From assembly GCF_000400485.1 (NCBI RefSeq), contig NZ_ASHR01000046.1:1-48197 (forward strand): 48,197 nucleotides of DNA, given 5' to 3'. Position numbers and translations under genes: made by a program. This document shows, piece after piece, positions 18,977 to 26,454 of the stretch. Each line of letters opens with the position of its first letter. Position 1 is the first letter of the stretch. A model generated the notes under the pieces. That model was given only the letters and a program-made list of their open reading frames with translations, was not told the DNA's origin and did no database searches. Source of the stretch: Agrococcus pavilionensis RW1. GTDB lineage: Bacteria; Actinomycetota; Actinomycetes; Actinomycetales; Microbacteriaceae.

Positions 18977-20275
18977 GTGATCGACCTCGCCCCCATCCAG
19001 CTCGACCCCGCCTTCGCCAACGTGTGGGACGAGCTGCAGTACCGCGGGAGCGTGCACGTCTCGACCGACCCGGAGGCGCTGCGCGCGCTGCTCGGCGGCG
19101 ACCCGATCACGTACTACTGCGGATTCGACCCGACCGCCCCGAGCCTGCACCTCGGCAACCTCGCGCAGCTCATCATCATGCGCCGGCTGCAGCTGGCCGG
19201 CCACCGGCCGCTCGCCCTCGTCGGCGGCTCGACCGGCCTCATCGGCGACCCGAAGCCGACGGCCGAGCGGCAGCTCAACGAGCGGGAGACCGTGGCGGAG
19301 TGGGTCACGTACCTCGGCGAGCAGATGCTGCGCTTCCTCTCCGACGAGGGCGACAACGCCGTGCGGCTCGTGAACAACCTCGACTGGACCGAGCCGCTCT
19401 CGACCGTCGACTTCCTGCGCGAGGTCGGCAAGCACTTCCGGGTCGGGACGATGCTCCGCAAGGACGTGGTCGCATCCCGCATGGAGTCGGACGAGGGCAT
19501 CTCCTACGCGGAGTTCAGCTACCAGGTGCTCCAGGGACTCGACTTCCGCGAGCTCTTCCTCCGCTACGGCTGCATCATGCAGCTCGGCGGCAGCGACCAG
19601 TGGGGCAACCTCACCGCAGGGACCGAGCTCATCCGCAAGGCCGAGGGCGTCCACGCCCACGCCCTCGGGTCGCCGCTCATCACCGATGCCGACGGCCGCA
19701 AGTTCGGCAAGAGCGAGGGCAACGCCGTCTGGCTCGACCCGAACCTGACGACGCCCTACGCGATGTACCAGTTCTGGCTCAACCAGGACGACGCGATCGT
19801 CGTGCAGCTGCTGAAGTCGTTCACATTCCTGCCGTCGGCTCGCATCGCCGAGCTCGAGCGCGCGACGGCCGAGGCCCCGTTCCGCCGCGAGGCGCAGCGC
19901 GAGCTCGCGCTGCAGGCGACCGCCTTCATCCACGGTCGCGCCGCGACGGAGCAGGCGATCGCCGCATCGGAGGCGCTCTTCGGTGCCGGGGATCTCGCGG
20001 CGCTCGACGCCGGCACCCTCGCCGCCGCGGTTGGCTCGCTCGACCGCCAGGCGACGGCGACGGATGACGCGCCGGTCCTGCAGCTGCTGCAGGAGACGGG
20101 ACTCGTCGACTCCCTCTCCGAGGGGCGGCGCGCGATCGCGCAAGGCGGCGTCTCGGTCAACAACCAGCGCATCGACGACCCGGCGGCGACGCTCGAGGGC
20201 CGCTTGCTGCACGGCCGCTTCGCGGTGCTCCGCCGCGGCAAGAAGACGCTCGCGGGCGTCGACGCCGGCGCCTGA
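18977..20275 (+). CDS. tyrS: tyrosyl-tRNA synthetase
   Basis: Class I synthetase charging tRNA-Tyr. The HIGH motif appears as HLGN with His58 and the KMSKS motif as KFGKS at residues 242-246. The tyrosine pocket segments YYCGFDPTAPSLHLGN and QLGGSDQWGN are present. The C-terminal S4 RNA-binding domain ends with EGRRAIAQGGVSVNNQRI. 432 residues. The gene precedes the rRNA operon. A weak six-base-pair hairpin directly after the stop (20276-20294) has no T-run. Confidence 0.97.
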   Translation: MIDLAPIQLDPAFANVWDELQYRGSVHVSTDPEALRALLGGDPITYYCGFDPTAPSLHLGNLAQLIIMRRLQLAGHRPLALVGGSTGLIGDPKPTAERQLNERETVAEWVTYLGEQMLRFLSDEGDNAVRLVNNLDWTEPLSTVDFLREVGKHFRVGTMLRKDVVASRMESDEGISYAEFSYQVLQGLDFRELFLRYGCIMQLGGSDQWGNLTAGTELIRKAEGVHAHALGSPLITDADGRKFGKSEGNAVWLDPNLTTPYAMYQFWLNQDDAIVVQLLKSFTFLPSARIAELERATAEAPFRREAQRELALQATAFIHGRAATEQAIAASEALFGAGDLAALDAGTLAAAVGSLDRQATATDDAPVLQLLQETGLVDSLSEGRRAIAQGGVSVNNQRIDDPAATLEGRLLHGRFAVLRRGKKTLAGVDAGA

Positions 20276-20528
20276 CGCCGCCGGGGGAGCGGCGCGACAC
20301 GCCCGGGATGCACGCAGTTTGCGGCCCGCGTCCCCGAGCCGTGTAACGTATCCACTCGTCACCCCAAAGACGCCGAGCCGGACAGGCCAGCGGATCAAGA
20401 GGGACCACCCCCAGCAGAACGGCCACGCTTTCGCGTGCTTGCCGAGACGCGGGTGCGGTGACAGACCACTTCAACGATGAATGTGCGGAGAGCACGGTCG
20501 GCAGCTGCCGACCGAGCGAGACACCGAC
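20276..20528. other. tyrS to rRNA-promoter spacer
   Basis: No gene is visible. A weak promoter-like TTTGCG at 20318 and TAACGT at 20344 has a 20-bp spacer and is probably not strong. A perfect 20-bp palindrome is at 20495-20514, just upstream of the first rRNA promoter. Confidence 0.6.
20495..20514. promoter_or_regulatory. 20-bp perfect palindrome upstream of rRNA P1
   Basis: Each half-site is CGGTCGGCAG or its complement, with no loop. It ends 14 bases before the TTGACA of the first tandem promoter, a position suited to an operator or activator site. No regulator can be named. Confidence 0.5.
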
Positions 20529-20556
20529 TTGACAGTCGCTCCGGAGCGTGTAACCT
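20529..20556 (+). promoter_or_regulatory. rRNA promoter P1
   Basis: TTGACA (20529-20534), 16-bp spacer, TAACCT (20551-20556). The -35 is perfect; the -10 keeps T1, A2 and T6. Start expected near 20563. Confidence 0.75.
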
Positions 20557-20610
20557 AGACAGGTTGCCACGAGCCGGGCCGAATGCGAGCCCGGTGCAGC
20601 AGGAGCCGAT

Positions 20611-20638
20611 TTGACAGTCGCTCCGGAGCGTGTAACCT
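20611..20638 (+). promoter_or_regulatory. rRNA promoter P2
   Basis: TTGACA (20611-20616), 16-bp spacer holding CGCTCCGGAGCG, TAACCT (20633-20638). Confidence 0.75.
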
Positions 20639-20691
20639 GAACAGGTTGCCACGAGCCGGATCGATCGAGACCGGCTCTCGCAGATGCCGAC

Positions 20692-20719
20692 TTGACAGTC
20701 GCTCTGGAGCGTGTAACCT
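20692..20719 (+). promoter_or_regulatory. rRNA promoter P3
   Basis: TTGACA (20692-20697), 16-bp spacer with CGCTCTGGAGCG (one change breaks the palindrome), TAACCT (20714-20719). Confidence 0.75.
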
Positions 20720-20773
20720 GAACGGGTTGCCACGAGCCAGGCCGAGTGTGAGCCGGCTCTCGCAGACGCCGAC

Positions 20774-20801
20774 TTGACAGTCGCTCTGGAGCGTGTAACC
20801 T
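20774..20801 (+). promoter_or_regulatory. rRNA promoter P4
   Basis: TTGACA (20774-20779), 16-bp spacer identical to P3, TAACCT (20796-20801). Confidence 0.75.
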
Positions 20802-20856
20802 GAACGGGTTGCCACGAGCCAGGCCGAACAGCGAGCCGGCTCCAGCCGACGCCGAC

Positions 20857-20884
20857 TTGACAGTCGCTCCGGAGCGTGTAGCCT
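20857..20884 (+). promoter_or_regulatory. rRNA promoter P5
   Basis: TTGACA (20857-20862), 16-bp spacer with the intact palindrome, TAGCCT (20879-20884). The A-to-G change in the -10 is matched by a T-to-C change in the partner arm at 20892. Confidence 0.75.
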
Positions 20885-20946
20885 GAACGGGCTGCCACGA
20901 GCCGGTCGATGTCCGGCGCCAGCGAAGCTCCGCACGGCGTGTCGAT

Positions 20947-20974
20947 TTGACACGGACCGGGAAGTGGCTAACAT
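20947..20974 (+). promoter_or_regulatory. rRNA promoter P6 (diverged, nearest to 16S)
   Basis: TTGACA (20947-20952), 16-bp spacer of unrelated sequence, TAACAT (20969-20974), the best -10 of the set. It lacks the CGCTCCGGAGCG palindrome but keeps GTTGCC downstream, so it may be the ancestral core promoter. Confidence 0.8.
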
Positions 20975-21191
20975 AGAGAAGTTGCCTCGGCGCAGACCCC
21001 CACGGGGAATGCACGAGAGCGTCTGATCCTTGAGAACTCAACAGCGTGCACAATGTCAAATGCCAAAAATTACTCGTAGTGCCTTCGGGCACACGATTCC
21101 TTTGGATGAGACGGATTGTCAGTAGACAGTCCATTTTGTCAGCATCAAACTCGCTGCCGCCCGGCTTTCCCCGAGCGGTACGCAACATTTC
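20975..21191 (+). other. rRNA leader with boxA-like element
   Basis: About 210 bases of 16S leader. TTGAGAACT at 21030-21038 recurs in the 16S-23S spacer (22988-22996) and resembles actinobacterial boxA antitermination elements. GTGCC-TTCG-GGCAC forms a hairpin near 21079-21092. AATGTCAA near 21052 is complementary to TTGACATT near 22795 in the spacer, possibly part of the 16S processing stem. No gene. Confidence 0.6.
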
Positions 21192-26226
<5,035 letters not shown>

Positions 26227-26335: not shown

Positions 26336-26454
26336 GTTTCGGCGGCCATAGCGAGAGGGAAACGCCCGGTCACATTCCGAACCCGGAAGCTAAGGCTCTC
26401 AGCGCCGATGGTACTGCAGGGGGGACCCTGTGGGAGAGTAGGACACCGCCGGAC
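26336..26454 (+). rRNA. rrf: 5S ribosomal RNA
   Basis: About 119 nt. It starts GTTTCGGCGGCCATAGCG and closes with ACACCGCCGGAC, which pairs with the 5' end. The conserved CCCGGTCACATTCCGAACCC and GAGAGTAGGACACCGCC segments are present. Confidence 0.96.

Follow-up and report, generated by a model that had tools for sequence, protein, structure and literature searches.

A recently amplified array of rRNA promoters before the one detected rrn operon of an Agrococcus genome

The window analysed here is a stretch of 48,197 nucleotides from an Agrococcus species. It carries an rrn operon with tyrS upstream, and this is the one rrn operon detected in the host; a single rrn operon is used here to mean one 16S match per genome, with the operon lying inside a contig. 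The TyrS protein encoded in the window is 97% identical to that of Agrococcus lahaulensis. A set of argC-J-B-F-H-like genes, named by eye, also falls within the window, and genes for a CarD-type protein and for RbpA were found in the host genome. The features of the locus are as follows.

18977..20275, + strand: tyrS (tyrosyl-tRNA synthetase), named by eye, preceding the rrn operon
20295..20311, + strand: CGACACGCCCGGGATGC, a conserved motif 5' of the distal promoter
20318..20349, + strand: P0, putative distal promoter, TTTGCG ... TAACGT, with the -10 at 20344-20349, placed by family alignment and consensus
20356..20409, + strand: P0 RNA element at the predicted 5' end of the P0 transcript (R1 model match, 37.9 bits)
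20492..20517, + strand: inverted repeat of 13 nt, 92% complementary, without a loop, immediately 5' of P1
20529..20563, + strand: P1, -35 at 20529-20534, -10 at 20551-20556, predicted +1 a G at 20563
20611..20645, + strand: P2, -35 at 20611-20616, -10 at 20633-20638, predicted +1 at 20645
20692..20726, + strand: P3, -35 at 20692-20697, -10 at 20714-20719, predicted +1 at 20726
20774..20808, + strand: P4, -35 at 20774-20779, -10 at 20796-20801, predicted +1 at 20808
20857..20891, + strand: P5, -35 at 20857-20862, altered -10 TAGCCT at 20879-20884, start region GCTGCC
20947..20981, + strand: P6, core rRNA promoter of the family type, -35 at 20947-20952, -10 at 20969-20974, predicted +1 at 20981
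21032..21044, + strand: GAGAACTCAACAG, boxC-like, in the leader 3' of all six promoters P1 to P6
21192..22712, + strand: 16S rRNA
23114..26226, + strand: 23S rRNA
26338..26454, + strand: 5S rRNA

The array of six promoters stacked before the host's only detected rrn operon is confirmed. A first-pass annotation made from the letters of the sequence had described six pairs of TTGACA and a -10 box with 16-bp spacers before the rRNA operon, and every one was recovered at its coordinates. The -10 boxes all follow TANNNT, being TAACCT in P1 to P4, TAGCCT in P5 and TAACAT in P6, and the GTTGCC start typical of the family is present in five of the six promoters. A repeat search returns P1 to P5 as five copies with 80-100% identity over 71 nt, and their spacing of 82, 81, 82 and 83 bp bears out the five near-identical modules of about 82 bp in that description. 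P6, 90 bp beyond P5, is no copy of the module and has its own spacer and its own -10. P5 has lost one A of the -10 (TAACCT to TAGCCT) and has GCTGCC in place of GTTGCC; judging by these bases, it is probably a weak promoter. The annotation was correct about the six promoters but missed what lies further upstream, at about 20295-20409, a promoter and an RNA element that are both conserved. Further into the leader, GAGAACTCAACAG resembles the actinobacterial boxC element, which binds NusA.

The promoters were compared with a background drawn from other genera of the Microbacteriaceae, using the regions upstream of 80 rrn operons as the reference set. The core promoter of the family consists of TTGACA, 16-17 bp, a TAAGTT-like -10, five bases and then (A/G)GTTGC. 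The -10 box followed by (A/G)GTTGC lies 200-420 nt 5' of 16S in 54 of 79 operons (L163, with only 269 nt of upstream DNA, was left out), while 100 base shuffles give a mean of 0.27 and a maximum of 2. A position model was trained on 33 rRNA promoters, none from Agrococcus, which had been selected by a pattern that already required (A/G)GTTGC. On the + strand of the 48-kb window, the top six distinct sites of this model are exactly the six promoters of the array, with scores of 30.2 for P6, 24.4 for each of P1 to P4 and 14.5 for P5; the next distinct site on that strand scores 9.0 at 21707. The maximum in a shuffled control was 12.1 among 41,669 positions. The - strand yields scores of up to 14.1, followed by 13.5, both within rRNA genes, so that P5 is hardly above the best background. 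Applied to the 80 family operons, the model finds no promoter in 26, one in 37, two in 15 and three in 2; since so many operons are without a match (L163 among them), zero counts may represent missed promoters.

The distal promoter and its RNA element are shared widely in the family. A profile of 20300-20480 detects related DNA in many family rrn upstream regions (after one iteration, 92 rows were aligned, those of Agrococcus among them), and the family consensus of this region is made up of the CGACACGCCCGGGATGC motif, a promoter with TTTGC and GTAATGT, and then an element predicted to be transcribed. The spacing of 20 in the putative P0 is longer than that of the family consensus. The first nine bases of the upstream motif occur on the + strand of 57/80 family rrn upstream regions. 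Genome G022 has seven exact copies of the motif, one of them before rrn, and from its sequence it looks like a putative binding site. The possibility that it is an activator site for rRNA only was dropped, the motif also preceding genes that by eye encode a secreted-type protein and an ECF-like sigma factor; no tRNA was found near its copies in 18 stretches checked.

The P0 RNA element is a structured RNA whose pairs covary beyond the controls. Five divergent copies fold alike as single sequences, and the structure assessed in the alignments was taken from these folds. In an alignment made from sequence only, of 23 rows that were chosen for easy alignment and so favour well-behaved members, 7 of 17 pairs show double changes and 93.3% of the cells pair; none of 500 shuffles and no slid version of this alignment reaches 7/17. 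With 59 distinct rows, double changes appear in 13/17 pairs, this alignment being fitted to the structure and hence lenient, and RNAalifold predicted no pairs for the element on a looser alignment of 51 sequences. Rfam gave no match to the element at the gathering score, nor at E<=5 across 20276-21191.

The element also appears to keep to a single genomic setting. The R1 model matches 71/99 tested sources, and 69 of the 70 matches checked precede 16S on the same strand; the locus of the 70th (L135) ends before 16S. In searches with strict filters, the element was found in 88 of 120 family genomes and 59 of 76 genera, for 142 matches. Eighty of these lie 263-783 nt 5' of a 16S gene in the same orientation; another 34 point off the start of a contig within 1 kb, and the remaining 28 point off the end of a contig within about 550 nt. 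Positions at contig ends are expected because repeated rrn operons break assemblies, and none of the 142 copies lies in a place that contradicts linkage to rrn. Under the same kind of filter, none was found in 23 genomes from other families of the order, and a class sample yielded 5/197 genomes, two in Microbacteriaceae and three weak ones outside. Searches of open-licence literature turned up no paper on Agrococcus rRNA promoters and, among the papers listed, none on structured RNA upstream of rrn in Microbacteriaceae. The conserved P0 RNA is thus apparently unreported and, being linked to rrn and having no Rfam match, is a candidate for a new element in the control of rRNA synthesis. From its position, where the longest rRNA precursor is predicted to begin, our guess is that it acts in antitermination or modifies the polymerase.

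The genus sample comprised 24 Agrococcus genomes. Five modules are present in the window, five in G017 and at least nine in G015 (A. lahaulensis), where nine are visible and one of these, the second, is cut by a run of N. The arrays of G017 and the window are 95% identical. In G015, the inner modules alternate between two forms, so that a 166-bp unit of two modules appears three times, otherwise identical. At both ends of the array, the outermost module has a linker of its own that is retained in all three species of this clade; it was therefore the interior of the array that expanded. The modules are thus neither absent nor random in close relatives, either of which the first-pass annotation had named as counting against its reading, and the count of modules per rrn operon that it proposed shows a shared module with a copy number that varies, as by expansion within one clade.

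Outside this clade, the number of promoters is smaller. Twenty Agrococcus operons with tyrS in the upstream DNA were examined, the window included, and the model finds from 0 to at least 10 promoters in each, the number varying between species. Upstream of the core promoter there are one or two promoters in 12 of these operons, three in one (G013) and none in four (G001b, G007c3, G010 and G022b). Modules also precede two operons without tyrS in the upstream DNA examined (G012 and G007c1). In G007, the core promoter is the only one at the operon linked to tyrS, whereas the two modules precede a different operon, not behind tyrS; a strict tie between the modules and tyrS was dropped for that reason. 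Neighbouring promoters of the Agrococcus modules and core are 74-98 bp apart. Helical phasing was considered and rejected: distances of 81-83 and 93 bp fit whole turns, but relatives also show 74, 79 and 98 bp, which match no whole number of turns.

A strict search pattern that requires three consecutive promoters, and so misses looser arrays, is matched in 3/349 family genomes, namely those of the window, G015 and G017, all of them Agrococcus. In a phylum sample, the same strict pattern is matched in 1/396 genomes, the window's own. The sample included 8 of the 24 Agrococcus genomes, and G013 was not among them. G013 (an A. casei record; L131) has four promoters 83 bp apart in the last 500 bases before 16S, in sequence unlike the modules of the window. 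By sequence, this row is perhaps an independent amplification of promoters within the genus.

The modules do not diverge evenly along their length. Taking the first 47 bases of a module as the promoter part and the rest as linker, the pairwise difference among the five window modules is 0.060 in promoter parts (28/470) versus 0.405 in linkers (140/346), with p 1e-4 in a column permutation test. A module-by-module comparison of the window with G017 finds 6 of 235 promoter sites changed and 15 changes across the five linkers. The promoter parts look selected because they are about sevenfold less different than the linkers, and selection on each promoter would be the simplest reason for the contrast. 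The same figures bear on the possibility of neutral tandem-repeat expansion, in which slippage or unequal crossing-over copied one useful upstream promoter and the additional copies contribute little. Tandem repeats expand easily, and the copy number that differs between close species and the recent two-module expansion in A. lahaulensis are both what such a process would leave behind. Speaking against it are promoter parts that are nearly fixed while the linkers drift and the 0-3 promoters per operon that the model finds in the rest of the family, and we consider it rather unlikely.

Each module contains potential for base pairing in three places, and two of these bear on a role for RNA. The stem downstream of the promoter folds in all five modules of the window, as the first-pass annotation had claimed, and in all modules of the clade; in relatives it is not uniform, being weak or different in several. 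The dyad over the -10 and start has 5/5 pairs in P1 and P2. In P3 to P5, it has 4/5, so the dyad seen earlier in every module is complete in two of them. It mostly arises because two promoter parts, TAACCT and AGGTTGCC, are each conserved in their own right, the dyad joining TAACCT with AGGTT. A compensated change is present in P5, where TAGCCT goes with GGGCT (20879-20901), and it is also found in L108 and L109, so in three species. It would represent one event by descent and is the sole hint that the -10 dyad itself matters. The changes in the P5 dyad should weaken the promoter, yet they have been maintained in three species.

The transcripts of P0 to P4 might, on these grounds, form a string of hairpins whose effect would be to delay, process or protect the long leader. 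A 378-nt stretch folds with z -6.4 against plain shuffles, a score that is untrusted for a repeat, and a repeat-aware control was made instead. Four tandem copies of P2 fold at -171.2 kcal/mol versus a mean of -120.6 (sd 12.5) for fourfold repeats of shuffled P2, giving z -4.0 with 0/100 as low. Since the repeated module folds better than repeated shuffled modules, read-through RNA may be structured, and to that extent the earlier suggestion of a hairpin chain may stand, but the downstream stem varies among relatives. Palindromic repeats pair with each other automatically, moreover, and modules folded one at a time mostly give ordinary values (five z-scores, -0.3 to -2.75). Even with the compensated P5 dyad in its favor, we judge a role of this kind for the RNA to be very unlikely.

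The third dyad is a palindrome in the spacer, between -35 and -10. It had been described for every spacer, and it is perfect in P1, P2 and P5 (CGCTCCGGAGCG), whereas P3 and P4 carry CGCTCTGGAGCG, with one pair mismatched. All 18 clade modules counted have it perfect or one pair short. The mean number of pairs, out of 6, is 5.6 in clade modules (n=18) and 4.0 in modules elsewhere (n=21), with controls of 1.6 for core promoters and 1.7 for shuffled spacers. Outside the clade, it is perfect in 1/21 modules. Changes on both sides that keep a pair occur in 4 of these 21, all strongly diverged (one in G007 and three in G013), and in none of the remaining 17; an operator dyad conserved or compensated across relatives is thus not what was found. 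The proposal that a regulator binds every spacer palindrome cooperatively and controls all promoters jointly draws on the position and near-perfection of the palindrome in the clade and on the excess of pairs over shuffled spacers elsewhere, but is not supported, because perfection is so rare outside the clade and descent explains the remaining similarity, and it is the least likely of the readings weighed here.

We also compared the number of promoters with the number of rrn operons. Among Agrococcus genomes, there are 3.7 promoters per operon where one rrn operon was detected (13 genomes) versus 1.0 where there are more (5 genomes), with one-sided p 0.0007, or p 0.02 when the best operon of each multi-rrn genome is used; these and the following statistics ignore relatedness, and drafts may hide operons. 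In other genera of the family, the figures are 1.24 promoters with a single rrn operon (n 21) versus 0.83 with more (n 25), p 0.023. Six of the 24 Agrococcus genomes were excluded as fragmented (G003, G005, G009, G010, G014 and G016), the count for G015 was set to 10, and weak -60 matches in G007 were dropped. The trend is favored by the method because multi-rrn genomes with non-model promoters count as zero (G022 and G063 are examples).

Among known systems, the closest is the hypervariable multiple promoter region (HMPR) of the mycobacterial rrnA and rrnB operons, which like the window has tandem promoters before an actinobacterial rrn operon in a number that varies by species. In a region of the HMPR type, the promoters lie between 16S and a conserved gene, murA or tyrS. 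The window likewise has six model promoters between a conserved gene, tyrS (18977-20275), and 16S (21192), and promoter number varies between Agrococcus species. As excerpted, PMC10218544 gives two rrnA promoters in M. tuberculosis and five in M. chelonae, and it places mycobacterial rrnB, with a single promoter, behind tyrS, the position of the operon in the window. An excerpt of PMC6418233 gives M. chelonae one rRNA operon; on the strength of these excerpts, it parallels the array-bearing Agrococcus in joining many promoters to one rRNA operon. The difference is that the extra Agrococcus promoters are near-identical 82-bp tandem copies whose number differs between close species. Operons with two promoters, such as those of E. 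coli (P1/P2), B. subtilis and Propionibacterium acnes, also have them in tandem upstream of 16S. The excerpted part of PMC3848588 describes two start sites in each of three P. acnes operons, and likewise in E. coli and B. subtilis; they differ from the window in having two promoters versus six, and that part mentions no tandem-repeat structure for them.

A further comparison is with the boxB-boxA-boxC leaders of rrn antitermination. An excerpt of PMC6614801 treats the role of boxC in M. tuberculosis. The window leader has a boxC-like GAGAACTCAACAG 3' of P6. With that position downstream of P6, transcripts of all the promoters would carry it. The P0 RNA element has a different structure from these leaders, is absent from Rfam and lies at the distal promoter; its link to antitermination is a guess. 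On an M. tuberculosis rRNA promoter, CarD activates on linear DNA and represses on supercoiled DNA, according to the portion of PMC10232725 available. The Agrococcus promoters may use CarD and RbpA as well.

The best reading of the array is as an extreme form of the mycobacterial multiple-promoter region. The array of rRNA promoters is genuine, its amplification is recent, and it is a striking variant within a known type. We think it probable, with room for doubt, that it serves as the multiple-promoter region of a single detected rrn operon, in which one clade's module was amplified, and that it likely brings more initiations into the operon and so increases the output of ribosomes. The older parts would be the distal promoter P0 with its structured RNA, one upstream module and the core promoter P6. 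The module would then have been amplified in tandem, recently and in one Agrococcus clade, to the five, five and at least nine copies observed. Each copy would be an rRNA promoter for the housekeeping sigma factor, beginning a little above the -35 and running as far as the conserved start region GTTGCC, with initiation presumably by GTP. Because the copies span the whole rRNA promoter, the array would multiply one growth-regulated promoter and add no new regulation.

The spacing is compatible with this multiplication of initiation. A polymerase footprint is such that promoter distances of 74-98 bp leave space for one polymerase each, and the roughly 82 bp between promoters would give room for neighboring polymerases side by side. 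More initiations per unit time could then enter the one rrn operon, and the outcome would be the dosage that other bacteria get from extra rrn copies. Not every module need fire, since P5, without the -10 A and GTTGCC, is kept in all three species, and output need not rise with promoter number because upstream polymerases can block downstream ones. How a bacterium with only one rrn operon attains a high output of rRNA is an open question, and operon number often serves as a guide to growth rate. In Agrococcus, species with 2, 3, 6 and at least 10 promoters, each with one rrn operon detected, form a natural series on which promoter dosage can be tested directly.

A more elaborate version joins the array to the P0 RNA. 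Promoter number would be an evolvable, length-variable gear, with expansion taking the place of operon duplication, and the P0 RNA, as a new structured leader found across the family and exclusive to rrn, would modify polymerases starting far upstream for passage through the promoter-packed region and the long leader, as a cis-acting form of antitermination. In phages, put-type RNAs act as cis-acting antitermination elements. This combined scheme strikes us as a long shot, though one worth stating.

Two smaller observations concern the DNA between P0 and P1. At about 20420-20460, relatives have a promoter-like pair seen by eye, TTGCGT, 17 bp and TACGGT, the last being TGCGGT in the window. The inverted repeat at 20492-20517 is a near-perfect palindrome of 26 bp, and in other Agrococcus (G008 and G007) related dyads with compensated changes can be seen by eye in the same place.
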